DNA from: Ignavibacteriales bacterium
Lineage (GTDB): Bacteria > Bacteroidota > Ignavibacteria > UBA10030
DNA length: 64,000 nucleotides
Assembly: GCA_026390595.1 (NCBI GenBank)
Contig: JAPLFQ010000021.1
Coordinates: 248,001-312,000, forward strand
Direction: 5' to 3'
Made by a program: the position numbers and the translations under genes. Below, in pieces: positions 11,520 to 25,007 of the stretch. Below the pieces are notes generated by a model. The model was not told the origin of the DNA, did not search any database, and was given only the letters and a program-made list of their open reading frames with translations. The stretch's first letter is position 1. The number at the start of each line of letters is the position of its first letter.

Positions 11520-12902
11520 TCACCTCGGCTTGCTAAGTTTGTAGAGTTTCATTTTGCTTGATAACATTTTTGCACTGATGCCCAGGATCCTGGAAGCGCG
11601 CCGCTCGTTCCAGGCAACCGACTTCAGGATGCCTTTGACATGGGCCTTCTCGAGCTTCGCCAACGACATCTTGATGCCGACACGAACTCCCCCGGTCGAA
11701 GCACCAACGGTAGACTTGCGGACCGCACGAGAATGGCGGATGAGCGCAAGGTGATTGGCTCCGATGGTATTTTCTTCAGAAACCACAGCGGCCCGGCGAA
11801 TAACATTCTCCAGCTCCCGCACATTCCCGGGCCAGTCGTAGTTCATCAGGGTCTCGAGAGCATGCTCGTCGAGTTTCTTGGGCTGCTTGGATCCGGCGTG
11901 ATCGACGAGGAATTGATCGACGAGCAACGGGATGTCGTCTTTCCGGTCCTTCAATGCGGGGAGCCGAAGTGTGATGACATTCAGTTGCCCCAGAAGATCA
12001 GAACTGAACTTCCGGGCCCGGACCTCGCGCTCCAGATCCTTAGTCGATGCTGAAATAATCCGTACATGCGATTTCAGCGTCTTGCTCCCTCCAATTCTCC
12101 GGAACTCCCCGGTCTGAAGGAATGTGAGCAGTTTCGGCTGGAATTTCGCCGGCAATTCCCCGATTTCATCCAGAAAGAGAGTGCCGCCGTCAGCGATCTC
12201 CAGCAATCCTTGTCTGGAACCCGCGCCATTCTGCAGGGCTCCTTTCTCGTGGCCGAAGAGTTCGCTCTCCAGGAGTTTCTCCGGAATGGAAGAGCAACTC
12301 AGCACCAGGAAAGGCATTTCTTTCCGCAGGCTGTTCGCGTGTATGAAATTCGCCACAACTTCTTTCCCTGTGCCTGTCGCTCCCTGGATGAGCACCGGTG
12401 ATTCCGTCGGAGCGGAGCGCATCGCCACGTCCAGCATCCCGAGAAGCGCTTTGTTCTCGCTGATCATGCTTGAGGGGAGAGCACGGTACGCGATCTGGCG
12501 CCGAAACGCCTTATTTTGGACAACCAGTCGTTTCCTCTCCAACGCCCGTTCCACCAACCCCACAAGGTCGGCCGGCGTATACGGTTTCGTGACATAATAA
12601 TATGCACCCAGGCTCATACATTCCACAGCGGTCTTCACGTCATGTACAGCCGTGAGCATGATGACTTCGGTATCCAGGTGCTGGTTCTTGATGAACTTCA
12701 GCACTTCCACACCGCCGACATCGGGCATCATGACATCGAGGAATACGAGATCGAACGGAAGCGTCTGCAACATCGTGATTGCCGTCCTGCCATCGGCGGC
12801 AGTATCAACATAGTAGCCTTGCCGTTCCAACACGTGCTTCAGGAGATGAAGAAGACTCTCTTCGTCATCAACGGCAAGAATGGAAATGGCTGGTTTTTCC
12901 AT
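11520..12902 (-). CDS. NtrC-family response regulator with degenerate sigma-54 contact motif
   Basis: 460 residues: receiver (1-120, phospho-acceptor D56 in FLDVMMPDVGG, K106 in VTKPYTP), AAA+ domain (about 145-375) and a Fis-type HTH at the C-terminus (ERRASRILGISAKML). Walker A (GATGTGKE, 174-181) and Walker B (GTLFLDE, 240-246) are intact, as is the sensor II segment YDWPGNVRELENVIRR. However, the GAFTGA loop that contacts sigma-54 reads GALQNG at 221-226. The usual FRxDLYYRLNV arginine-finger segment reads FSSDLLGQLNV at 299-309, with both expected arginines gone. I infer it does not drive sigma-54 open-complex formation and may act as a repressor or sigma-A co-regulator, as known for TyrR-type relatives. 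It heads the 3-keto-glycoside operon. No cognate kinase is adjacent. Confidence 0.9.
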   Translation of the reverse strand: MEKPAISILAVDDEESLLHLLKHVLERQGYYVDTAADGRTAITMLQTLPFDLVFLDVMMPDVGGVEVLKFIKNQHLDTEVIMLTAVHDVKTAVECMSLGAYYYVTKPYTPADLVGLVERALERKRLVVQNKAFRRQIAYRALPSSMISENKALLGMLDVAMRSAPTESPVLIQGATGTGKEVVANFIHANSLRKEMPFLVLSCSSIPEKLLESELFGHEKGALQNGAGSRQGLLEIADGGTLFLDEIGELPAKFQPKLLTFLQTGEFRRIGGSKTLKSHVRIISASTKDLEREVRARKFSSDLLGQLNVITLRLPALKDRKDDIPLLVDQFLVDHAGSKQPKKLDEHALETLMNYDWPGNVRELENVIRRAAVVSEENTIGANHLALIRHSRAVRKSTVGASTGGVRVGIKMSLAKLEKAHVKGILKSVAWNERRASRILGISAKMLSSKMKLYKLSKPR

Positions 12903-13199: not shown

Positions 13200-14019
13200 A
13201 TGGAATCAGTCACCGCTGCGGCCCTCAATCTCAGGCATGATCCTGTTGCACTCCTTTGGGCAGAAGCAGAACCCGAAGATGCCCTGCAATTCCACCATGA
13301 AAAATGGGGCTGCGTGATGGAGATGTTTGCACAGGCTGCACTCGGCAAGACCGTCGCATTCGACAGACAAAGCTACGGTTGCCTCGGCGGAGGGGTGGGC
13401 ATCGGCTTCGGGAACCTCTACCTCAACTGGCGCGGGGGGATCGATTGTTTCTATGGATTTTTTTCGGCGGGAAATAAAGGAAAGGAAAACGCGGGGGCGA
13501 TAGCCGACGAAATTCGAAAGACCGGGCGGAAACTCGCGGTTGAGCGATTTCTTCACGGAGAAGGATATGTGAAGTCTCCGGAACTGGCAAAGAGGTTTGT
13601 GGCATCACTGCCGATGGTAGACATCCCGTCCCGATATGTGGTTTTCAAACCCCTGAGCAATGTGGACACTGTGAAGGGAACTCCGATCGTCGTAATCTTC
13701 ATCGCGAACGCGGATCAGATACCAACTCTCGTCTCGCTCGCAAACTACGGGCGTGGGACGCTCGACAATGTCGTCGTGCGGGCGGGAGCGGGCTGCCAGA
13801 GCATCGGAATCCTCGCGTATCACGAAGTGGAGCAGCGAGGTGCCCCGAGCGGTCATCGGACTGACGGATACCGCGGCTAGGGCGCATACAGCCGCGACGC
13901 TCGGCCATGACGTCCTGACCTTCGCAGTACCGTACAAGATGTTTCTCGAACTGGAGGAGAATGTTCCAGGGAGTTTCCTGGAGAAAGAAACGTGGCGCTC
14001 GTTGGTTGAGCACGAATGA
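13200..14019 (+). pseudogene. DUF169-family protein gene with a frameshift
   Basis: The first frame runs 226 codons from ATG 13200 (GAGGAACCC upstream) and ends at 13880. It shows DUF169 features: LRHDPVALLWAEAEPEDALQF, GKTVAFDRQSYGCLGGGVGIG, VVFKPLSN and VRAGAGCQSIGILAYHEVEQ. The expected end of the family (VPRAVIGLTDTAARAHTAAT, then LTFAVPYKMFLELEENV) continues in the +1 frame to a stop at 14017-14019. The join is at about 13841-13842, where removing one G from GAGGTGCC restores the frame. The restored protein is about 272 residues. DUF169 proteins are of unknown function with conserved cysteines, often in anaerobes. Either a real one-base insertion inactivated the gene or this is a sequencing/assembly error; the second part shows no decay, which favours recent or artefactual change. 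Confidence 0.8.
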
Positions 14020-14114: not shown

Positions 14115-16334
14115 TCACTTCTTCTTCAACGAATGCCCCGTCACCAATCCCACCACAAACAGGACCAGCGCAAGTGAGCCGATCGCAAAGATCGTGTCAC
14201 CAAAGACTCTCGACCACTTGAATGACTGCACGACCGGCGTGGCCAGAAATTCGGCGCTCCGTGCGTACCAGTAACCGTATTTCACAGATGCCCACGTCTG
14301 GAGTAACCCTACCGGGAGAAGGCTTATGACAACCATCGCCATCAGGCCGACGTTCAACGACCAGAAGGAGAATCCAAGCATCTTCTCTTTCCATTCGTCC
14401 TGAACCCAGAGGATTCTCAGACAGAAAAGCATGAGTCCTATCCCAAGCATTCCATAGACTCCAAAGAGCGCGGCGTGTCCATGCAACGGTGTCGTATTGA
14501 GCCCTTGCATATAATACAGAGCGATCGGCGGATTGATCATGAAGCCGAACAGTCCGGCTCCGACCATGTTCCAGAACGCCACGGAGATAAAGAAATAGAC
14601 AGGCCATTTGTACCTGCTGACCCATTCCGCAGACCGGGAAAGTCTGACGTTCTCCCAGGCCTCAAATCCGGCAAGCACGAGCGGGACGACCTCCAGCGCG
14701 CTAAAGACAGCGCCAAGCGCCAGCACGGCTGTCGGCGTTCCTGAGAAGTACAGATGGTGGAGCGTCCCGATGATGCCGCCGGCGAGATAGATCGCGGACG
14801 AGAGGAGGACGGCCGCACTTCCGGTCGCAGGACGAATCAACTTCAATCGCGTAAACATGAAAATGATCACCACCGTCGCGAAGACTTCAAAGAACCCTTC
14901 CACCCAGAGGTGGACCACCCACCAGCGCCAATATTCCACGATGCTCAGGTTTGTGCGCTGTCCCCACATCAGCCCGGCAAAGTAGAAACCGCCGATGGCG
15001 ACCGTCGCAATGAGGAACAACATGAGGATCGATTTGTGCTCATCGCCTCGCCTGATCGCGGGAACGATTCCGCGGGCGACAAGGAAGACCCAGAATGCAA
15101 GCCCTCCGGACAGTGCGATCTGCCACACTCTTCCAAGATCGACATACTCGTACCCCTGATGCCCGAGGTAGAACCACCAGTCACCCGACAACTTGTTGTG
15201 GATGCTGAGCGCTTCGCCGACGAATGAGCCGACGACTACCAGAAGAAGAGCCCCGAACAGAACATCGACGCCGAGTTTCTGTCGGTTCGGCTCGTTTCCG
15301 CAGACGACAGGGACAATATACAGCCCGGCTGCGAGCCACGCCGTCGCGATCCAGAAGATACCCAGTTGCACATGCCATGTTCTCGACAAGACATAAGGAA
15401 TCCATTTGCTCAACGGAATACCATAAAACCCTCCCCCTTCAACGCCATAGTGAGCCGTCACAACCCCCATGCCGATTTGTACTAGGATGAGGGCGGAGAC
15501 AGTCCAAAAGTACTTCAGGGTTGCACGTTGCGATGGAGTCGGTCGTGTGCCGAACAACGGATCGGAAGCGGGTAACGAATCCGGCGCCGGCGCCGCAGGT
15601 CGCGAAGCGTGATACCACACCATGCCGCCGATTCCTGCAAGCAGCAGGATGATGCTCACACCAGTCCAAACGACTGCATCAGGTGTGGGCCGATTGTTGA
15701 CGAGTTCCTCATGCGGCCAGTTGCTCGTATAAGTGATATCGTCTCCCGGACGGTTCGTTGAAGCAGCCCACGACGTCCAAAAAAAGAAAGCCGAGATCTG
15801 CCTCAGTTTCGCCGGATCGCTGACCGCTCCCTGCGGAATTGCATAGTGATCATTCCCCTCAGAGAAGACCTGGGAGAAGTGCCGCGTGTTCGCTTCAATG
15901 GCCCTCGCTCGAACAGGTTCAATGGTGATCTTGCCGGTGGAAGCATCGTACGTGTTCGTCCTCATCAATTCCTGCAAGCGACTTTGCAGCATTGATTGAT
16001 TCTCTCCATCAAGTGCAGTGTATTCCTTTCCGTACTTTTCGTTCGACCAGGAGTTCAGAATGAAGATACACTCGCGATGGAGCCAGTCGGCCGTCCAGTC
16101 CGGTGCCACATAGCTGCCATGCCCCCACACTGAACCCAGTTCCATTCCTCCCATTGCCTGCCATACATTTTGTCCATCTGAGACCTCCCCCTCGGATATG
16201 ATCACTCTCCCATCGGTCGTGACTACGGCCGCCGGCAAGGGGGGCTTCTCCTGGTATATCCGCCATCCGGCCCATCCCAGAACGGCAAATCCGAACGCAA
16301 TAACGGACCAAAAGAGTATCCACAGCTTTTTCAT
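14115..16334 (-). CDS. norZ: Quinol-dependent nitric oxide reductase (qNOR), single subunit
   Basis: 739 residues, matching the usual 740-760 of qNOR. An N-terminal membrane anchor (LWILFWSVIAFGFAVLGWAGW) leads to a periplasmic domain (about 40-210) resembling the NorC subunit but with no CxxCH, so it binds no heme c. About 12-13 membrane helices follow. Heme and FeB ligands can be recognised: low-spin heme His in SRTWHVQLGIFWIATAW, FeB His and the conserved glutamates in WVVHLWVEGFFEVFATV, the His pair in GTLHHLYFSG, and heme b/b3 His in TTPLHGHAALFGVYG. The enzyme reduces 2 NO to N2O with quinol electrons at the inner membrane, for detoxification or partial denitrification. ATG at 16334 has GAGGTG upstream. 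No norD/norQ or nitrite reductase gene is near. Confidence 0.95.
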   Translation of the reverse strand: MKKLWILFWSVIAFGFAVLGWAGWRIYQEKPPLPAAVVTTDGRVIISEGEVSDGQNVWQAMGGMELGSVWGHGSYVAPDWTADWLHRECIFILNSWSNEKYGKEYTALDGENQSMLQSRLQELMRTNTYDASTGKITIEPVRARAIEANTRHFSQVFSEGNDHYAIPQGAVSDPAKLRQISAFFFWTSWAASTNRPGDDITYTSNWPHEELVNNRPTPDAVVWTGVSIILLLAGIGGMVWYHASRPAAPAPDSLPASDPLFGTRPTPSQRATLKYFWTVSALILVQIGMGVVTAHYGVEGGGFYGIPLSKWIPYVLSRTWHVQLGIFWIATAWLAAGLYIVPVVCGNEPNRQKLGVDVLFGALLLVVVGSFVGEALSIHNKLSGDWWFYLGHQGYEYVDLGRVWQIALSGGLAFWVFLVARGIVPAIRRGDEHKSILMLFLIATVAIGGFYFAGLMWGQRTNLSIVEYWRWWVVHLWVEGFFEVFATVVIIFMFTRLKLIRPATGSAAVLLSSAIYLAGGIIGTLHHLYFSGTPTAVLALGAVFSALEVVPLVLAGFEAWENVRLSRSAEWVSRYKWPVYFFISVAFWNMVGAGLFGFMINPPIALYYMQGLNTTPLHGHAALFGVYGMLGIGLMLFCLRILWVQDEWKEKMLGFSFWSLNVGLMAMVVISLLPVGLLQTWASVKYGYWYARSAEFLATPVVQSFKWSRVFGDTIFAIGSLALVLFVVGLVTGHSLKKK

Positions 16335-16553: not shown

Positions 16554-18368
16554 TCAGCCCTCGGCGATTTCCTTCAGTCCGAGCTCAACCAACCGTTTTT
16601 CAGTCGGGATACCGTTTTCAGTCCATCCCATGAGGCCGTAGTACTCACTTCTGAGCTTGCCCAGCTCCAGGACATGCCCCTTTGCCGGTCCGGACGTCAT
16701 TGGCTCGGCGAGCGCCCGTTTCGGCAGTGTATCCTCCCTGGACGTGAAGCCTTCCCTCGTGCTGAAGAGCCGTGCAAGCACGGTCATCCGTTCGCCCACA
16801 TGTTCAAGGTCACGCGGGCTCTTGTATTCGAACCCGGTGCATGGGTTGACCATTTGGAGAATCTCTTTCAGCGTGATGCCGAATTTCACAAAGTAACAGA
16901 GAATCAACGCGTCAATGATTGACGTATCGAATTGGTTTGTCTTGAAGAGCTCCGCTTTCCCTTCCGTCGCCAACGGGTCTGCCCCGCCAAGGATCTCCGC
17001 CAGCGGCGAGCCGCGGAGATGACAGCCACCACGGTCAGACACTGCGTAGCTCAATCCGATCCCTTGCGCCGCATTCGGATGGTAGGCCGGCAACTCCAGT
17101 CCCTTCACTTGCATCGCGAAGTCTTCACTGCCGGGATAGTGCTTGCTGATTTCGCGGACACCGTTCTGCAGCAGCAGTCCGACCCCCTCGCCTTTTGCGA
17201 TCTTCTCTGTCAAAGCAACAAGCGCATCGCCGCTCCCCCACTCGGCTTTGACCCCATCGAGGTCTGTCGAGGAAATCATGTTCCTTTGATACATCTCCAT
17301 CACAAACCCTACGATGTTGCCGACGCTGATGGTATCGATCCCGTACAGATCGCACAAGAAATTGGAATAGATAACAGCTTCCTTGTCCGTGATGCCGCAA
17401 TTCACCCCCATCGCCCAAATCGTTTCGAAGTCGGGTCCATCGATTGCGATGTCGCGTGTTTTCGCGTAGGCGATCTTTGAACAATAAATCGGACAGCCAT
17501 AGCACCCGATGGAGCGGGTCCAGTATTCTTTGCGCCACGCCTCCCCGGTCATTTCATTGCTGTGTTCGAACTGACCTTCCTGGAAATTGCGTGTCGGCAA
17601 TGCGCCCGCCGCGTTCACGAGACCCAGGATGTTGGCCGTGCCGTCCTCGTTCATCCGTTTGATTTGGTTCGACATACGAAGCATCCGGTAAGCAACCCAC
17701 GTGGCTTCGTCAAACTCCGCCGGATTGAAGACTTGCACGGACCCTGTGCCTCTGAGGGCAATTCCCTTGAGCTTTTTCGAGCCAAGAACAGCCCCTGCTC
17801 CGCCTCTGCCGGCAGTCCGCTCGTCATTGAAAATCCCGGAGATTGGCACCAGCCGTTCGCCCGCCGGACCGATCACAACGGTTTGGAATCCTTCACCGTG
17901 CTTCGCCTTGAGACGCTTGGCCGCTTCGGCTGTCGTTGTTCCCCACAAGTCCTTCGCGTCTTCAAGATGGACGTGGTCATTGTCGATGACAAGCGTGACG
18001 GGTTCGCTCGCAGCGCCTTCGATGATGATCGCGTCATAGCCTGCGAACTTCATCGTTTGACCGAAGAATCCTCCGCAATACGAGTCGAGGAAGGTGTGCG
18101 TCGCCGGGCTCTTTGTCACGACGCCGAACCTCCCCGAAGTTGGTGCGCTGGTGCCTGTGAGCGGTCCAACCACGAAGATGAAGGGATTCTCGGGAGAAAG
18201 TGGATCGGCGTGAGGCACGGACTCTTTGTACAGATAGTATGCTCCGATCCCTTTGCCGCCCAGCAGCAGTTTTGCGATATGCGGGTCAATGCGTTCCGTC
18301 GTACAACTCCGTTTCGTCAAATTGACTCGCAGCACATTGTCGGCATATCCCCTGTTCTTAAGACTCAT
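16554..18368 (-). CDS. aor: Tungsten-type aldehyde:ferredoxin oxidoreductase (AOR family)
   Basis: About 604 residues from ATG 18368, which overlaps the preceding stop as ATGA and has AAGGA upstream. The N-terminal AOR domain shows LLLGGKGIGAYYLYKE, VGPLTGTSAPTSGRFGVVTK and GRGGAGAVLGSKKLKGIALR, the bis-pterin and cluster-binding segments of the family. The [4Fe-4S] ligands are in CYGCPIYCSK (CxxCxxxC), with a fourth Cys probably in DALILCYFVKFG. The enzyme oxidises an aldehyde to an acid, reducing ferredoxin, using a tungsto-bispterin cofactor; it is cytoplasmic and oxygen-sensitive. It is translationally coupled to an aldolase-ferredoxin fusion, suggesting that the aldehyde product and the electron acceptor are supplied by the same neighbour. 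Family known, substrate unknown. Confidence 0.92.
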   Translation of the reverse strand: MSLKNRGYADNVLRVNLTKRSCTTERIDPHIAKLLLGGKGIGAYYLYKESVPHADPLSPENPFIFVVGPLTGTSAPTSGRFGVVTKSPATHTFLDSYCGGFFGQTMKFAGYDAIIIEGAASEPVTLVIDNDHVHLEDAKDLWGTTTAEAAKRLKAKHGEGFQTVVIGPAGERLVPISGIFNDERTAGRGGAGAVLGSKKLKGIALRGTGSVQVFNPAEFDEATWVAYRMLRMSNQIKRMNEDGTANILGLVNAAGALPTRNFQEGQFEHSNEMTGEAWRKEYWTRSIGCYGCPIYCSKIAYAKTRDIAIDGPDFETIWAMGVNCGITDKEAVIYSNFLCDLYGIDTISVGNIVGFVMEMYQRNMISSTDLDGVKAEWGSGDALVALTEKIAKGEGVGLLLQNGVREISKHYPGSEDFAMQVKGLELPAYHPNAAQGIGLSYAVSDRGGCHLRGSPLAEILGGADPLATEGKAELFKTNQFDTSIIDALILCYFVKFGITLKEILQMVNPCTGFEYKSPRDLEHVGERMTVLARLFSTREGFTSREDTLPKRALAEPMTSGPAKGHVLELGKLRSEYYGLMGWTENGIPTEKRLVELGLKEIAEG

Positions 18369-19633
18369 GCTCTTGTTCCTTTTGGTTGGGTCAGCACTAT
18401 CGCCCGCGGTGTGCACCACTGGATGCATTGAGGATCGCCATCACACATGTCGCAGAACAAGGGAATCCCCTGGCGATCGAGCATGACCAGATCGAGCGGG
18501 CAGGCGGTCACACAATCCCCGCACGAAGTGCACCGAGACCGGTCGAGGACGAGATACCCTCCCGAGCCGACTGTGAGCGCCCCTTCTTTGCAGGCTTCCA
18601 CACATTTCTCACAAAGCGGACAAACAATTGGTTTCGAAATACGGGGCTCGTTGGGACGGAATTTGTACTCAATTCTCAGCCGGTGGCTGCTCTGGTCGAA
18701 TTCTGTCGAGTGGAAATGGACACAAGCAATCTCACAGAGCTGACAACCGGTGCAATTGACGGCGATGGGTCTGAGCCTTCCTTGCTTGCCGGATTCAGTG
18801 CCGAGAATTTCATCTACGCTCTTTCCTTCGTGAACCAGAGCGCAGATATCCTCCACCATCTTCCTCGGATCTTTCGCCTTCGTCACGTTTCTCCCGAAAA
18901 CGGTGCCGCTGGCGCCGGCACGCAGTGCCTCGTCGGCAAGTTCCAACGCGTCACGCGGGTCGTCCGACTTGGCCCCACCAAGCACGAGTACCGGGACGCC
19001 CGCTTCATCAACGAGTTTCTTGAAGCTCTTCACATCATTGGTATATGGAATCTTCAGAGCATCAGCGCCGATTTCGGCGGCAATCCGTGCAGAGGCGATG
19101 AGAATCTCCGTCACATTCACTCCGGTAACCGGTGCTCCCACCGCCATCGGTTCAATGATCAACGGGAGGCCGACCTTGCGGCATTCCTTCGCGAAGAAAG
19201 CAGCCTGCTCGATATTGACTGCTTCGAATTCGTCACTATAACCGATGAAGTAGTAGATCGTGATTGCGGAAGCGCCGACGAGCAGGGCGTCCCTGGCACA
19301 CGATGTTGCCATCTTCTTGAAATTCACTGCAGGGAGGATATTGCTCAGGTTGGATCCTCCCAAGCGTGGCATGTTCATCCAGTCAGCACGAATCAGCAGC
19401 GCGGGAGCGTTCTTCCCCTCGAAGAACTCGCTCATGCGAAGCGCGGTTCCGTAACTCACAAGGATACCATCAGCTCCGCCGAGCACAACCTGACCCAGGA
19501 TCTTTCGGAGTTCGAGAACATTCGGCGTCGGATCGGACATCCAGCCATGGTCTGCAGCCACACATACCGCCCTGCCGTCTTTCGGATTGAAGAGCCTGTT
19601 CAGGCGAACAGTTTTACCAGGTGACACTGTCAT
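18365..19633 (-). CDS. Fusion: DhnA/LsrF-type class I aldolase + four-cluster ferredoxin
   Basis: 422 residues. Residues 1-275 form a class I aldolase TIM barrel of the DhnA/LsrF/FbaB type: catalytic Asp in CVAADHGWMSD, Schiff-base Lys in GADALKIPYTND, and phosphate loop segments VLVLGGAKS and GASGTVFGRNV. Residues from about 290 on carry 16 cysteines in four groups: CTGCQLCEIAC, CPLCEKCVEAC, CTSCGDCVTAC and CDMCDGDPQCIQWC. That is the pattern of HycB/DmsB-type ferredoxins with four [4Fe-4S] clusters. I know of no standard enzyme with this fusion. Its stop overlaps the AOR start, so a complex or substrate hand-over with AOR is likely: the aldolase could release an aldehyde, AOR oxidise it, and the ferredoxin part take the electrons. 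A phospho-sugar-like substrate is inference. No signal peptide; cytoplasmic. Confidence 0.9.
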   Translation of the reverse strand: MTVSPGKTVRLNRLFNPKDGRAVCVAADHGWMSDPTPNVLELRKILGQVVLGGADGILVSYGTALRMSEFFEGKNAPALLIRADWMNMPRLGGSNLSNILPAVNFKKMATSCARDALLVGASAITIYYFIGYSDEFEAVNIEQAAFFAKECRKVGLPLIIEPMAVGAPVTGVNVTEILIASARIAAEIGADALKIPYTNDVKSFKKLVDEAGVPVLVLGGAKSDDPRDALELADEALRAGASGTVFGRNVTKAKDPRKMVEDICALVHEGKSVDEILGTESGKQGRLRPIAVNCTGCQLCEIACVHFHSTEFDQSSHRLRIEYKFRPNEPRISKPIVCPLCEKCVEACKEGALTVGSGGYLVLDRSRCTSCGDCVTACPLDLVMLDRQGIPLFCDMCDGDPQCIQWCTPRAIVLTQPKGTRA

Positions 19634-19643
19634 GAGTATTCTT

Positions 19644-20420
19644 TCAGCGATGGATCAATTGTCTGAGTTCAGAGAATTCGTCCCCGATTGCTGCCGGCTC
19701 GAGGATTTTTTCCGTGAGCACGACGCCAGAAATTCCTGCAGCGAAGAGCGCATCCGTTTTCCCGGAGTCAGGGAGCTCGTCGAGTCGCAGCATCACCGGG
19801 ATTGTTGCCCACGTACCGATCAACGCGACCGTCTCAGCATCGCACTCCGGCAGAATGAGCGCGTCTGCTCCTGCTTCCATCATGAAGGAGGTCCCGAGCT
19901 TGATGGCACCCATGTAGTTGACTGCGGAGATCTTGTCGCCGGTCGGCCGTATGTCCACCACGAGAGGGAGAGACAGCCGGTAACACTCACGCGCCAATAG
20001 TGAAATTGATCTGATGTTCTCCGCCTCCAGGTCCTCTCCAAAGCCGAGGAGGAATGTGGCCACGACCGCAGAGGCACCAAGCTTGAGTGCGTCCTCACCG
20101 TCCGATATGGCAACTCGCGTGGCCGTCGAGGCGGGGAGACAGAAATCCTTGTCGCGGTATGCGTTTGTCCAATCGATACGCACGAGGGGCGCAGCCCGCA
20201 TCTTTCCTCCGAGCAGAGCGGCATGGTGCTCGAGCTGTCCGGGATTCAGGATCACACCGTCGAAAGAGATATTGCATCGTCTCAAGGCCTCGGAAATATC
20301 CTCCATTCCAGAACCCGCGCCCACAGATGAGGAACGCGTCATGTCCATTATAAGACATCGCTTGTCCCTGGAATCGATAAACTCGCTCATCCTGATGTTC
20401 TTGCCGACGTTGATATTCAC
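19644..20420 (-). CDS. DhnA/LsrF-type aldolase paralogue lacking the Schiff-base lysine
   Basis: 258 residues, GTG start at 20420 with GGGAG upstream, ending 10 bases before the aldolase-ferredoxin gene. It aligns along its length with the aldolase half of that protein: DGVILNPGQLEHHAAL vs DGILVSYGTALRMSEF, LVRIDWTNAYRDKDF vs LIRADWMNMPRLGGS, GASAVVATFLLGFGEDLEAEN vs GASAITIYYFIGYSDEFEAVN. At the active site, GADALKIPYTND of the partner reads GADALILPECDA here, so the Lys is Ile. The AADHG motif reads LIMDMTRSS. It is therefore probably not an aldolase of the same mechanism. It could be a structural partner in a hetero-oligomer or a metal-free lyase with another function. Cytoplasmic. Confidence 0.85.
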   Translation of the reverse strand: MNINVGKNIRMSEFIDSRDKRCLIMDMTRSSSVGAGSGMEDISEALRRCNISFDGVILNPGQLEHHAALLGGKMRAAPLVRIDWTNAYRDKDFCLPASTATRVAISDGEDALKLGASAVVATFLLGFGEDLEAENIRSISLLARECYRLSLPLVVDIRPTGDKISAVNYMGAIKLGTSFMMEAGADALILPECDAETVALIGTWATIPVMLRLDELPDSGKTDALFAAGISGVVLTEKILEPAAIGDEFSELRQLIHR

Positions 20421-20455
20421 GTTTCACTCCCTGAATTGTCTATACAGCATCCGTT

Positions 20456-21895
20456 TCAATCAGACTTCTTGCCAGGCTTCTCATCGGTTGACTCCGGCTG
20501 AGGACGGAGAGCCCTGCTGAGAGCCATCGCCGGACCCCAGTGACCCTTGCGTCTCAGCCAGGCAACGAGCTTGCGGGGATCAAATAGTCTCGCGAGCGAG
20601 AACAAAACCCAGCCGACGGTGACAGCCCGAAGAACAACCCACATGGCTTGCTCCCATGTTGAACCGTTCACGACAATGATGATTCCGACGAAAACTACGG
20701 GCGCCCAGAACAGCGGCCGTATAAGGTCACGTAATCCCTTTCGAACGGCTGCCTTCAGTGTTGGAGTTCCGACATCACCCGTGATACCTCTCGCGCCTTT
20801 GTCCAACATCGTCCTGATGCGGGCTGGCAGGCGATGACGGCGCAGCCACGCAAACAGCGTAGCGAGAGCAGACAATGTGCCGCAGACAACCGTCCACAGA
20901 GCGATAAGCGAGACGATTCCGGGAAGCTGAAGATGCAGATACTCCGCGGTCCAGCGGATCATCACATCGAGAGCAGGCAGGAGGTTGTCTCCAATCATCA
21001 GATACTGAAGGACCAATCCCTGCAGCGCCGCCCACGCCCCAACGAACCATCCTCCAACGAAGATCCCGACCACGTTCCATCCCAATATCGTGGATACGAA
21101 ACTGAAGAGAAATCCCTGCACAGTGATGGCAAGCATCGGGCGCAGACGCCCGCCGTACGGCGAGAGCGCTTTCAAACCTGCGGAGATCACAGGTACCCAC
21201 ATCACCCGGCCCCTGTTCGCGAGCCGGTCTCCCGCATACATCATCACCAACGATTGCACCACCGACAAGAAAAGCCCGCTCATCGGGATCTTTGCCTGAT
21301 GCAACGCGGAGCCAACCGTGGCCTCGAATCCTCCGGCTGCCGCTCCGAACTGTCCAACCCGGACCCAATCCGAATGATGCAATACCAGGTTCTGAAGCTG
21401 CTCCGGCACACCCGGTACGGTGACATCGAATACGACATCGAAAGGGGACCCCAACCGGTTTTCGATTTCCCGAACAACTTTTTCTCTCACAGCGATGACG
21501 ACCACTTCCGGCTTCGAGCTCTGAATCGATTCCCAGTACTTCATGTGCCCGTCCCCCCGCGCTTCCAGCGGTCCGAACTCATCGAGGATAAGAAGCGACA
21601 GAGGATGCCTCGCTTTGAGCGAATCCGCCCACGCAGACAGTTCCTTCACTGTTCCCGGGTCAATTCGATACGGCGGCGTCAATGAAGTGTCCCGGCGGAC
21701 GAACGGAAGCTGTTTTCCCGACGAGATGAGCTGAAGAACGTACTCCTCTGCTCCCATGCCCGCTTCAACGCGATCGTACGGCAGGGCGAGAAAGCCGTCA
21801 ACAGACTTCCTTTGTTCCTTTGCCCACGCCGAAAGAGACGAGAGCACTGTCGTCTTCCCTGATCCTACCGGACCTGTCACTGCAACAAGAACCAT
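20456..21895 (-). CDS. THEP1-like P-loop NTPase fused to a polytopic membrane domain
   Basis: 479 residues. Residues 1-165 have a P-loop (TGPVGSGKTTVLSSL), the DGFLALPY segment and a Walker B (LSLLILDEFGPLE), as in THEP1/NTPase_1 (nucleoside-triphosphatase) proteins. From about 190 to the end there are six to eight hydrophobic segments, for example GLFLSVVQSLVMMYAG, LAITVQGFLFSFVSTILGW, VVGIFVGGWFVGAWAAL, IVSLIALWTVVCGTLSAL, APVVFVGIIIVVNG and MWVVLRAVTVGWVLF. The first membrane block resembles a small-solute or ECF substrate-binding component, but this is only by feel. The C-terminus is charged (PESTDEKPGKKSD). Placed right after a TonB-dependent receptor gene, it could energise or regulate inner-membrane uptake of the same ligand. 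Function otherwise unknown. Confidence 0.8.
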   Translation of the reverse strand: MVLVAVTGPVGSGKTTVLSSLSAWAKEQRKSVDGFLALPYDRVEAGMGAEEYVLQLISSGKQLPFVRRDTSLTPPYRIDPGTVKELSAWADSLKARHPLSLLILDEFGPLEARGDGHMKYWESIQSSKPEVVVIAVREKVVREIENRLGSPFDVVFDVTVPGVPEQLQNLVLHHSDWVRVGQFGAAAGGFEATVGSALHQAKIPMSGLFLSVVQSLVMMYAGDRLANRGRVMWVPVISAGLKALSPYGGRLRPMLAITVQGFLFSFVSTILGWNVVGIFVGGWFVGAWAALQGLVLQYLMIGDNLLPALDVMIRWTAEYLHLQLPGIVSLIALWTVVCGTLSALATLFAWLRRHRLPARIRTMLDKGARGITGDVGTPTLKAAVRKGLRDLIRPLFWAPVVFVGIIIVVNGSTWEQAMWVVLRAVTVGWVLFSLARLFDPRKLVAWLRRKGHWGPAMALSRALRPQPESTDEKPGKKSD

Positions 21896-21927
21896 TGGGA
21901 TTGAGAAAACCTCTGGTTAATTGCCTG

Positions 21928-21968
21928 CCCGCCATCTTCTTGGCGGGGTGAATAGTGAGTGGTGAATA
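21928..21968. repeat. Palindromic hairpin plus GTGAATAGTG repeat inside the AOR operon
   Basis: CCCGCCA-TCTTCT-TGGCGGG is a perfect 7-bp stem, immediately followed by GGTGAATAGTGAGTGGTGAATA. It fills much of the 91-base gap between the receptor and NTPase genes. The loop word CATCTTCT also occurs in the hairpin at 3768-3795. No T-tract follows on the minus strand, so it probably modulates rather than ends transcription, or is a mobile palindromic unit. Confidence 0.55.
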
Positions 21969-21986
21969 AGCGACTGCAATGTGCAA

Positions 21987-24791
21987 CTAATATTCAAGGC
22001 GGAATCCGACGCGGATCTGTCTTGGTTCGCCGTATGTGTCGCCTACGCCCGTGCCAATGACGTAGTACCGATTGCCGTTTCCGAATGCATCATAAATATT
22101 GCGATAATCCGGGATCCGAGACTCATAGTATCTTGAGGGCTCGGAGCCCAACCATCCGTCCTCATCTGCACGCCCAGTCATCGGATACACGTTGATCACG
22201 TTCTTCGTGTTGAACAGATTCAGAACGTTTACGTAGAACTCGAGGGTGATCGGATCAAGGAACAAGAGCTTGCTGCACCGGAGATCAACATTGCACATCA
22301 TCGGAGTCGTCGACGAGCCTGGCGCTTCCTGAGGTTTACTCATCCGGGCATCGACGAGGGGGCGAACCCCTGCACTCCAGACTGAGGCGGACCCTTGCGT
22401 CGTCATGGCCTCGATGCGGGTGTACGCGTGGCCGCCATTGAATGAGAGGAGCACGTTCAATCCCACACCTTCAAAAACCCCACCTATCTCACCTTTCTCA
22501 ATCCGATAGTCGAGGTTCACCGTCGCGGTATGGGCGAAATTGAACGGGGGAAGGTACGTACTTTTTGGATAGCGCGCATTCACATCGGAAACAGTTACGG
22601 AACCGGATGTGGGGGACCATTCGGTCATGGTTGAGTTGGCCAGCGTATAGTTTGCTCTGGCAGAGACTCTTCGTGTGCGGGCGACTTCAAGCGTGAACTC
22701 CAACCCTTTTGTTGATCCATAATCCCGATTCATGAACGCGGTAAATACTCCTTCTCCCATGGAATCATAGTACCGACTTATCTGGATCTGTTGCTTCAGC
22801 TCTTTGTAATAGACGGCAGTAGTAAGAACCATGTTGTCTGTAAGCCGCTGCGATATTCCGCAATCAATGTTCATCGTCCGCTCGGGCTGGACGAAGAAGC
22901 CAAACTTTCCGGCATATGGACTTCTGGAGTTCGGACTCAGCCCAGCGCTGAACCCGGCAGACCCCTGGTAGAACAGATCCAGACGGGGGAACTGTGCATA
23001 CTCGCCGTAGTGAGCGTAGAACGTTGTATTCTCGGAGGCCGCAACGGAGAATCCGAGTCGTGGAAGCAGGAGTCCGACGGGTCTTGTGTTCTCGATCTTG
23101 CTCTCGTCGATGATATTCAGACGTTGATTGATCCAGATGTTCCTGTAATCCGGCTGGCCCGTCAACGGGTTTGGCACGGGCTCAATGTATTTCAGACCCT
23201 CGTCAAAGAACTCATAGCGACCACCGATGTCGAATGCCACTCCACCCGACACATACGACACTTGCAGATAGGCTCCTCCATTGAGCGACTTGTAAGGAGG
23301 ATCCAGAACTGCTCCTGCCGGGGCGCCGTCGAGCGTATATCCATCTGTTTTGCGTCCGAGATAATCATATCCGTAGTTTCCACCCACCAGAGATGCGAGG
23401 TAGAGCAAACGGCGCTCGTACTCGTTTGCAGGAGGGCGGTATTGGGCTGAGTAGACCGGTCCGGTAAGATAGTAGCTGATATATTGGAGGTCGAACAAAC
23501 GGTGAGTCCATGAAGACAGGTGACCACCGATCCTTACCTCGATGTCCTTGCTTACTGAGCTGGAGAGATCAAGCGTAATTCCCAACGCGCCGTTCTCCCC
23601 TTTTGAGTACCGGTCGTTCGGCCAGTTCTCCGCCCGGAAATACATCATCCTCGTTCCCCATTCAGGCGGGCCTGAGTACCTACTGCGCCATAAGGCCGTG
23701 CTGAATCCCTTTGCCTCCCACTCGAGACTGTCGGGATACGATGCCCAATCGTCACCAAACGAAGGATCATATGTCCGGCTCTTCGAAAACTGGTACGATA
23801 TGCCAAGTTCATAGCGCGTTGAAGGGGACAACGTGTGGGTCAGCTTGCCGGTAATGAACCACGTTGACAACTCGGACATCATCAAATGGCTTCCGCGGTA
23901 GTAATTGCGGAGAAGGCCGTTCGTGAACGAGTCACCCCATGAGCTTCCTTCGGGTTGGCGCGAATGCGAATATCCCGCCGCAAATTTCATCACCATTGGA
24001 AGAGAAGCGATATCTTTCAGGTCGACCAACAATGTCCCACTTACCTGGTTTTGCTCCCGCCAGTTGTTTGGGACATGATTTCTCAGTATTTCGATCGGAC
24101 CAGGCAACGGGACTCCCCGCAATGAAGAACTGTACACTCCCTCGTCTACGAGACCGTCAATCTTGAACGGTTCCAAGAAAATGATCTGCCTGTCCCTGAT
24201 GTAATTGTGCTCACCGGCGAGGAAGATCCTGATTGCCGGCGTCAGGAGAGGCCCGCTTAGAGTCCCGACAATGTTACGATATCCAAAGGCGGTGGTACCC
24301 AAAAACGTCTTGCCCGGCTTCGCAAAATCATCAGTCTGGACATCAAGGGAAGCCCTGAGGCGGCTGTCTCCTGTTCGCGTTGCGACAGAGAGTAATGCAG
24401 AATTCGCTGGTCCGCGTTCGACACCGAATCCGCCGGGTTCGAGCCTCGCTTCTTCCACCATTTCCTGGATGAGAGGAACGTGCATTCCCAGTGTTGCCGG
24501 GTTCGTGATGTCGAATCCATCCAGAAAGAATCTGATTTCATTCGCCCGGCCACCTCTGACATGCCAACCGTCTGCGTATCGGTTGATGCCGTTACTCAGG
24601 CCCACGATCGGCAAGATTCCGCGCAACGGGAGGTTTCGCATGTTCTGCTGACTGAAGACCCGGATGGTGTTCGTGCTGACAGCTTGAAGAGATGATCTCA
24701 ATGCAAGGCTGTCCACTTGCATTTGAGCCCCTGCCCGGACACCGCCGGCGAAAAGGCACATCACAACAGCCCACAGAAGACCGTGCCCCAT
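21987..24791 (-). CDS. TonB-dependent outer-membrane receptor
   Basis: 934 residues. A signal peptide (GLLWAVVMCLFAGGVRAGAQ) precedes a plug domain (about 35-150) with LPLRGILPIVGLSNGINRY, WHVRGGRANEIRFFLDGFDI and VEEARLEPGGFGVERGPANS. The rest is an aromatic-rich beta-barrel ending DTYGEPRQIRVGFRLEY with a terminal Tyr, as expected for barrel assembly. It lacks the N-terminal CarboxypepD_reg domain that many Bacteroidota SusC-type receptors have, and no SusD gene is adjacent, so it is not a standard glycan-uptake pair. ATG 24791 has GGGGGG upstream. It is the second gene of the operon that ends with AOR, and its ligand may be the pathway substrate or a metal chelate such as tungstate; neither is shown by the sequence. 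Confidence 0.88.
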   Translation of the reverse strand: MGHGLLWAVVMCLFAGGVRAGAQMQVDSLALRSSLQAVSTNTIRVFSQQNMRNLPLRGILPIVGLSNGINRYADGWHVRGGRANEIRFFLDGFDITNPATLGMHVPLIQEMVEEARLEPGGFGVERGPANSALLSVATRTGDSRLRASLDVQTDDFAKPGKTFLGTTAFGYRNIVGTLSGPLLTPAIRIFLAGEHNYIRDRQIIFLEPFKIDGLVDEGVYSSSLRGVPLPGPIEILRNHVPNNWREQNQVSGTLLVDLKDIASLPMVMKFAAGYSHSRQPEGSSWGDSFTNGLLRNYYRGSHLMMSELSTWFITGKLTHTLSPSTRYELGISYQFSKSRTYDPSFGDDWASYPDSLEWEAKGFSTALWRSRYSGPPEWGTRMMYFRAENWPNDRYSKGENGALGITLDLSSSVSKDIEVRIGGHLSSWTHRLFDLQYISYYLTGPVYSAQYRPPANEYERRLLYLASLVGGNYGYDYLGRKTDGYTLDGAPAGAVLDPPYKSLNGGAYLQVSYVSGGVAFDIGGRYEFFDEGLKYIEPVPNPLTGQPDYRNIWINQRLNIIDESKIENTRPVGLLLPRLGFSVAASENTTFYAHYGEYAQFPRLDLFYQGSAGFSAGLSPNSRSPYAGKFGFFVQPERTMNIDCGISQRLTDNMVLTTAVYYKELKQQIQISRYYDSMGEGVFTAFMNRDYGSTKGLEFTLEVARTRRVSARANYTLANSTMTEWSPTSGSVTVSDVNARYPKSTYLPPFNFAHTATVNLDYRIEKGEIGGVFEGVGLNVLLSFNGGHAYTRIEAMTTQGSASVWSAGVRPLVDARMSKPQEAPGSSTTPMMCNVDLRCSKLLFLDPITLEFYVNVLNLFNTKNVINVYPMTGRADEDGWLGSEPSRYYESRIPDYRNIYDAFGNGNRYYVIGTGVGDTYGEPRQIRVGFRLEY

Positions 24792-24827
24792 CCTGCCCCC
24801 CTTTCATGCCCACTGCGACGCTTCCAG

Positions 24828-25007
24828 CTACTTCAAGACGGACTTGATCTTCGGTATAACATCTTTCCCGTACAAGTTGCACACTCCCTTTTTTGCTGCG
24901 GGCTTGATCTTCAACTCCGCAATCGCCTTCTTCACTTTTGCATCAGACAAGCCCATGTGTTTCGCGAGTGCGCCTGCTGTCATCAGATCAGAGTTCTCGG
25001 TTTTCAT
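24828..25007 (-). CDS. Small helix-turn-helix protein (59 residues)
   Basis: A 60-codon frame from ATG 25007 to TAG 24828, with AAAGGTG seven bases upstream of the ATG. The product starts MKTENSDLMTAGALAKHMG and continues LSDAKVKKAIAELKIKPAAK; TAGALAKHMGLSDAKVKKAI fits a MerR/HTH_17-type helix-turn-helix, and the C-terminal GVCNLYGKDVIPKIKSVLK resembles a wing plus helix. It ends 36 bases before the receptor gene and is the first gene of the AOR operon, so it could be its regulator. It is small enough to be overlooked by gene callers, but the start signal and composition support it. Confidence 0.72.
   Translation of the reverse strand: MKTENSDLMTAGALAKHMGLSDAKVKKAIAELKIKPAAKKGVCNLYGKDVIPKIKSVLK

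Follow-up and report, generated by a model that had tools for sequence, protein, structure and literature searches.

The aldehyde ferredoxin oxidoreductase (AOR) AorABC of Aromatoleum aromaticum joins an AOR catalytic subunit to a ferredoxin-like wiring subunit with four clusters, and AorA-type subunits are reported from few AOR clades only, where they wire the tungsten subunit (PMC10413684). Lysine-dependent aldolases of the DhnA family are exemplified by MJ0400 of M. jannaschii (2qjg), an archaeal class I fructose-bisphosphate aldolase (1ojx) and LsrF (3gkf). AORs require a pyranopterin cofactor, and vitamins can be imported through ECF-type S components and TonB-dependent receptors, such as BtuB for B12. 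For the molybdenum cofactor (Moco), the prevailing view is that cells needing it must make it, and the dietary uptake of ready-made Moco from other organisms has been described in C. elegans (PMC9793310). Here we describe an operon that brings features of these systems together, located in a window of 64,000 nucleotides (the whole stretch of DNA analyzed) from an Ignavibacteriales-type genome labelled G000. The four-gene core of this operon is a new variant of multi-subunit AOR. The result that we consider most interesting is that there are bacteria which have molybdenum or tungsten enzymes, apparently lack Moco synthesis and carry a co-occurring, uptake-like protein family, of which one member, NTPM, is encoded in the operon.

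The operon consists of six co-directional genes on the minus strand (25007-16554), and the gaps of 36, 91, 35 and 10 bases given in the preliminary description were verified, as was a final 4-base overlap. This overlap follows from placing the AOR start at the ATG at 18368 (MSLK...), which is the start common to relatives; the mechanical open reading frame (ORF) begins at 18428. The terminator previously proposed to close the operon was confirmed by folding (-20.9 kcal/mol, z -5.1, with none of 200 shuffles equally good) and has the longest stem among 13 terminator-like sites in the region. The features are, in order of transcription:

24828..25007, minus strand: HTH, the operon's first gene, a small, DNA-binding-like helix-turn-helix protein of 59 aa
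21987..24791, minus strand: receptor-like protein of 934 aa, outer-membrane type, with weak beta-barrel matches
20456..21895, minus strand: NTPM, an N-terminal NTPase_1 domain and a membrane part
19644..20420, minus strand: ALD2, a DhnA-family paralogue and pseudo-aldolase
18365..19633, minus strand: ALD1FD, an aldolase domain (residues 1 to ~280) and a 16-cysteine ferredoxin domain (~290-412)
16554..18368, minus strand: AOR, aldehyde ferredoxin oxidoreductase of 604 aa
16497..16528, minus strand: intrinsic terminator after AOR, a 12-bp stem followed by CTTTTT

Six genomes of the genus (G000-G005) were compared, and a wider set of 150 relatives was searched. The core HTH-ALD2-ALD1FD-AOR is real and is known from one genus: it is present in four of the six genomes (G000, G003, G004 and G005), and G001 and G002 carry neither AOR nor ALD1FD. 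In G003 the order is HTH-ALD2-ALD1FD-AOR, with neither receptor nor NTPM between, and NTPM lies on a separate contig. G004 shows NTPM-ALD2-ALD1FD-AOR up to a contig edge upstream, and G005 has HTH, NTPM, a different receptor (1125 aa) and a HAD hydrolase ahead of ALD2-ALD1FD-AOR. Given that the core is intact without receptor and NTPM in G003 and that the receptor is exchanged in G005, we read receptor and NTPM as an insert. The six-gene operon is thus real, yet composed of a core and a variable transport insert. The earlier idea of one six-gene module importing a compound and splitting it, which had been expected to fall if relatives carried the genes apart from each other, is not supported; the core survives that comparison. 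The pairing of AOR with an aldolase-ferredoxin is kept in the four genus genomes and, among the 150 relatives, the fusion was seen in this genus only.

If receptor and NTPM served to import the substrate of the aldolase as parts of a single catabolic operon, the common strand and tight spacing would be accounted for; NTPM is indeed a neighbor of the core in G000 and in G004, and it heads the same gene run in G005. Against this stand the separation of NTPM from the core in G003, the unconserved receptor and the company that NTPM keeps elsewhere: in G002 (L158:8522-13461) it lies between two XdhC-like genes, with a MocA-like gene after the second and XDH-type subunits ~8 kb off, and in G003 (L159) XDH- and MocA-like genes occupy the same stretch. 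NTPM relatives also occur in genomes without AOR, and we consider a single catabolic operon very unlikely.

The AOR itself is readily assigned. Both family domains score far above their cut-offs (AFOR_N 256.5 bits, cut-off 29.8; AFOR_C 407.4 bits, cut-off 27), and the protein is the sole AFOR_C match in the G000 genome. Residues C309, C312, C316, C511, E335 and H470 (624-aa numbering) are invariant in three genomes and align with positions of the P. furiosus enzyme (1aor) that we take to be the 4Fe-4S cluster cysteines and the active-site Glu and His. Of the earlier label "tungsten AOR", membership in the AOR family therefore stands on both domains and the aligned residues; tungsten is not visible in sequence. 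In the G005 assembly (L064:8773-10565) the AOR reading frame is interrupted, and an extra C-terminal AOR piece lies on contig C3.

The aldolase half of ALD1FD carries a DeoC/DhnA-type domain (80.3 bits) and shares with the solved DhnA aldolases the Schiff-base lysine (K194), an Asp (D28), the GG motif (G219-G220) and the GRN motif (G247-R248-N249). Its nearest relative in sequence is MJ0400 (2qjg), the 2-amino-3,7-dideoxy-D-threo-hept-6-ulosonate (ADH) synthase, and the same entry is the first structural match of the modelled, TIM-barrel-like ALD1 domain. ALD1FD remains below the NCBIfam cut-offs of all aldolase models among those listed, including the ADH synthase equivalog (148.9 versus 299.45 bits) and the PRK07226 subfamily (176.6 versus 241 bits). 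It differs from the described DhnA aldolases in its polyferredoxin fusion, in the inactive paralogue alongside and in a Tyr-to-Met exchange: Met163 aligns with Tyr153 of MJ0400, presumably a catalytic residue. The genes around unfused DhnA aldolases of related genomes, read by eye from N-terminal sequences, pointed to no substrate for ALD1.

The ferredoxin half contains 16 cysteines in four groups (positions 294 to 407). Its top whole-sequence score is to the MvhB polyferredoxin (1.2e-15), for which no single stretch passes alone. The next matches extend across nearly the whole ferredoxin part (7.5e-14 to 3.7e-11) and are to small subunits of AOR-family complexes: 6x6u_B and 6x1o_B of WOR5, 9mqx_E, the Fe-S subunit of an AOR complex, 8c0z_C, an AOR subunit, and 4z3w_E, the electron-transfer subunit of benzoyl-CoA reductase (1.5e-13 to 3.7e-11 for the last four). 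Such subunits bear the names WorS, AorA and BamC. The part that would hold their double-ferredoxin fold has pLDDT <50 almost throughout in the predicted structure. ALD1FD is not a stand-alone electron subunit, as the fusion to the aldolase runs uninterrupted in all four genomes carrying the locus, and the fusion is thus no assembly artefact.

Because the ferredoxin half resembles electron subunits of the AOR family, it probably ties the aldolase to the electron chain of AOR, which supports the coupling of aldolase, fused ferredoxin and AOR put forward in the preliminary description. The natural reading of the sequences is that the AOR's own electron subunit became fused to an aldolase. The window AOR and the ferredoxin half match chains A and C of the AorABC structure (8c0z). 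Unlike AorABC, however, the locus has its ferredoxin fused to an aldolase and no flavoprotein gene among its six genes. The filament-forming C-terminal helix of AorA (PMC10413684) is probably absent as well, since only 15 residues follow the last cysteine of ALD1FD. At four AOR loci of other phyla (L090-L093), tblastn found no DhnA aldolase nearby, with little flank on one or both sides in L092 and L093; in L090, a separate AorA-like ferredoxin ORF adjoins the AOR gene. Two observations weigh against our interpretation of this fusion. Full-length ALD1FD matches among the 150 relatives come from the four genus genomes only, so that the fusion is known from a single genus, and the Met163 exchange may mean that the chemistry differs. 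A literature search found no paper joining AOR, aldolase, ferredoxin domain and fusion. Matches to ALD1FD in a plasmid collection were set aside: among 15 listed of 275, 14 cover the aldolase part alone, and the longer match (Embleya, H1) has no evident aldolase-ferredoxin ORF among the ORFs inspected.

ALD2 is a DhnA paralogue of ALD1FD (25-28% identity to the window's ALD1FD) with a different fate. In all four genomes its Schiff-base lysine is replaced by Ile (ADALILP), and none of the motifs DHG, GG and GRN is left. At the same time, dN is well below dS in all six pairs (NG86; for example, 0.057 versus 0.339 for G004/G005), with dS near saturation in most of them. Judged from these substitution patterns, ALD2 is under purifying selection, but not maintained as a lysine-dependent aldolase. 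The aldolase paralogue pair of the preliminary description, one member fused to a four-cluster ferredoxin, is thus a pair of paralogues, and not one of two working aldolases, as ALD2 lacks the catalytic residues.

From the fusion and the conserved gene order we infer an aldolase-AOR relay. ALD1 would cleave or transfer a keto compound via its lysine Schiff base; this substrate is probably phosphorylated, as the GG and GRN motifs point to a phosphate site. The released aldehyde would be handed to the nearby AOR, tethered by its own electron subunit, and oxidized to the acid, with the electrons leaving through the four tethered clusters to an acceptor. ALD2 might be a catalytically inactive partner, possibly one that fills places in a mixed aldolase ring; the entries of solved DhnA relatives contain 10 or 20 chains, and these enzymes are decamers. 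The relay could also run in reverse, with AOR using low-potential electrons delivered by the fused clusters to reduce an acid to an aldehyde, which the aldolase would then condense to a sugar-like product. ADH synthase, a transaldol-type enzyme, is among the closest DhnA relatives of ALD1, and acid reduction by AORs has been described (PMC9295118). Yet, the core comes without biosynthetic partner genes and AORs usually act oxidatively; the direction cannot be read from sequence, and we regard the reductive variant as unlikely. Together, the oxidative relay and an import of its cofactor (molybdopterin or Moco) aided by NTPM form the reading that we propose, with putative roles for receptor and ALD2, and we hold the chances for and against it to be evenly balanced.

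Import is proposed because MoaA, MoaE and MoeA have apparently disappeared from the lineage, which would leave its AOR without another source of cofactor. In G000, no MoaA was found above cut-off (best 57.6 versus 284 bits), and neither MoeA_N nor MoaE gave a match; the same is true of G002, G003, G004 and G005 (best MoaA 88.8 bits, in G005). This search covered MoaA, MoeA_N and MoaE, and did not extend to MoaC, MogA, ModABC and metal-transport genes. G001 has MoaA, MoeA and MoaE. All six genus genomes nevertheless carry PF00384 matches (fragments only in G004), and G000 encodes PhsA-like and DmsA-like catalytic subunits as well as a MobA-like gene. The distribution of NTPM is the inverse of that of the synthesis genes: G000, G002, G003 and G005 carry it, G004 has it in two pieces at contig edges, and G001 is without it.

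The named near relatives are all metagenome-assembled genomes, and the three families might be missing merely through incomplete assembly or gene divergence. Gap-like patterns of this kind do occur, as in G377, G425, G451 and G154, which have MoeA and no MoaA. Chance gaps would, however, have to remove all three families jointly in five genus members and spare them jointly in G001, and the single-contig genomes G253 and G260 lack all three as well. We therefore consider this explanation quite unlikely.

Beyond the genus, the NTPM family was matched in 31 of 395 genomes of the phylum. One of these matches (G250, E 4.9e-4) is probably false, as no gene of the molybdenum-related panel introduced below was found there. 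Genome sets were compiled by hand, with absence of MoaA defined as no match at E<=1e-50. The family occurs in 15 of 41 genomes with PF01568 and without MoaA, and in 9 of 172 with both (Fisher p 6e-7; 8 of 172 without G250), where the PF01568 set (E<1e-6) includes weak matches that are possibly not Moco enzymes. It is rare in genomes with MoaA only (1/47) and in those with neither (6/135). When restricted to strong PF01568 matches, the counts are 12/18 versus 9/148, and 11/13 versus 6/27 for the class alone, with a post hoc cut-off and lists read by eye. Eleven genomes, from five families and including G253 and G260, are at least 90% complete, have a strong PF01568 match (E<1e-12) and lack MoaA, MoeA and MoaE; all 11 carry the NTPM family. 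Nine of these were recovered by the first search, and G123 and G246 only by a more sensitive profile. That profile was applied to 38 genomes, which include only some of the MoaA-positive ones; G205 and G328 were likewise matched only there, and none of the MoaA-positive genomes that can be named in this run (G001, G007, G008, G010 and G019) was matched.

Several points weigh against a link between NTPM and the loss of Moco synthesis. The cut-off of E<1e-12 was chosen after seeing the data, the counts ignore shared ancestry, and the hypothesis was itself drawn from these data. Six genomes (G013, G114, G265, G384, G424 and G450) carry the family without MoaA and without PF01568, and in G162 and G249 a fused NTPM coexists with MoaA, MoeA and MoaE, with neighbors that resemble, by eye, ptsI or pst-phoU. 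MoeA is retained without MoaA in G149, G154 and G466. Conversely, G475 (87% complete) and G483 (84%) have strong PF01568 matches and no MoaA, MoeA or NTPM match, and G006 lacks MoaA, MoeA, MoaE and NTPM, its Moco enzymes not having been checked. No molybdenum gene is in range at the fused loci L065-L069 (five) or at L161 and L162, and the window receptor does not belong to the family found beside split NTPM genes. Moreover, a literature search found no precedent for bacterial Moco uptake, and papers on Moco, auxotrophy, uptake and TonB together were, judged by title, not about Moco uptake. MoaE alone is a poor marker, as it is unmatched in nine MoaA-positive genomes, seven with the split NTPM-family gene (G141, G197, G209, G276, G313, G410 and G505) and two without it (G132 and G033); these genomes possibly have a different molybdopterin synthase arrangement.

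NTPM unites an NTPase_1 domain, presumably of the THEP1 type, and a membrane part without Pfam match in one protein, so that the earlier description as a P-loop/membrane fusion holds. Many genomes encode the two parts in separate adjoining genes, and in G035 (L074:9453-11126) and G018 (L166:4850-6706) they are fused in reversed order, membrane part first. At 8 of 24 split-type loci, the gene group also encodes another membrane protein and a TonB-type receptor; the receptor of L072 has clear Plug and barrel domains. The membrane family shows weak matches to Trep_Strep (3 of 19 members, best E 2.1e-4) and ABC_cobalt (1 of 19, E 4.3e-4), both of which we take to be ECF-S-type; no ECF S-component domain scored above cut-off in the 19 members, and the window NTPM gave no such match. 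These weak matches and the receptor-bearing split loci recall ECF- and TonB-dependent vitamin uptake, from which the family differs in having an NTPase_1-family NTPase rather than an ABC ATPase, and in sitting with molybdenum enzymes and MobA-, XdhC- or MocA-like genes. Solved structures yielded no match to NTPM at E 1. The one match to a profile of its membrane part (E 0.23) was not credible, and an AlphaFold model built from three sequences (pLDDT 35) was not used for fold search.

The neighborhood of the split genes was assessed with a panel of molybdenum-related queries (MopB/XDH/MobA). Of 24 split-type windows, 17 gave a match, as against none of 20 control windows, whose positions had been chosen in advance in genomes from the same set. 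L072, L073 and L074 supplied panel queries; excluding them leaves 14 of 21. In a set of ten further loci, L158, L159 and L164 gave panel matches and the other seven none. The MobA, MocA, XdhC, PhsA and DmsA likenesses reported here all lie below NCBIfam equivalog cut-offs. A gene of ~110 aa resembling carboxymuconolactone decarboxylase (PF02627) adjoins split NTPM-family genes in L071, L072, L128, L130, L131, L134, L141, L142, L163 and L164, and a PF02627-type gene immediately precedes the MobA-like gene of G000 (L112:14658-14993, contig C32); Pfam confirmed the assignment in L072 and L112 only.

From this neighborhood and the co-occurrence profile we infer that NTPM, together with an outer-membrane receptor, may import molybdopterin, Moco or a late precursor. 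NTPM and the receptor might instead import molybdate or tungstate, with the cofactor supplied by an unrecognized, non-homologous Moco pathway. The proximity of the family to molybdenum-enzyme genes fits this explanation too, the fused NTPM of G249 follows PstSCAB-PhoU-like genes (by eye), hinting at oxyanions, and several genomes have the family alongside MoaA and MoeA. Metal supply, however, does not account for the higher frequency of the family in genomes that have Moco enzymes and no MoaA, MoeA and MoaE, and an entire replacement pathway is an extra assumption; we judge metal import to be improbable, on a par with the reductive relay. Under cofactor import, the earlier suggestion that the transport genes bring in a compound or tungstate survives in spirit, as they may serve a metal cofactor, and not as part of one import-and-split module.

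The outer genes of the operon are less well defined. The receptor-like protein, described earlier as an outer-membrane uptake protein, has weak barrel matches below cut-off (OMP_b-brl_3, E 9e-4), no Plug match and, at E 1, no match among solved structures; with the window receptor outside the family that accompanies split NTPM genes, its role is assigned from position alone. The HTH call likewise stands on a weak match below cut-off (HTH_36, E 0.0025) and on homologues upstream of the core in G003 and upstream of NTPM in G005. Directly downstream of the operon, the window encodes a NorB-like nitric oxide reductase (14115-16334; NorB cytochrome c-like domain and COX1). A DUF169 (COG2043) gene (13200-13880) has a homologue near the core in G003 too, and a Sigma-54 response regulator (11520-12902) has one immediately after AOR in G005.

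More generally, we propose that some Bacteroidota-type bacteria are Moco auxotrophs that keep molybdenum or tungsten enzymes and import the cofactor via a receptor, an S-like membrane protein and an NTPase_1-type protein, and that in the present operon this importer lies beside an aldolase-fused AOR relay, possibly with a mixed active/inactive aldolase ring; this wider proposal is tentative, and we place it somewhat below an even chance. It would resemble the dietary Moco uptake of C. elegans in that ready-made cofactor is taken from other organisms, and differ from it in that the latter is an animal, whereas here a bacterial gene family is proposed (PMC9793310). If true, an aldolase fused to the electron wire of an AOR would offer a natural assembly for channelling a reactive aldehyde from one enzyme to the next. 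Bacteria that have molybdenum or tungsten enzymes, no recognizable MoaA, MoaE and MoeA, and an uptake-like family would also break the rule that cells must make their own Moco, which would then be an exchangeable community good, like vitamin B12.

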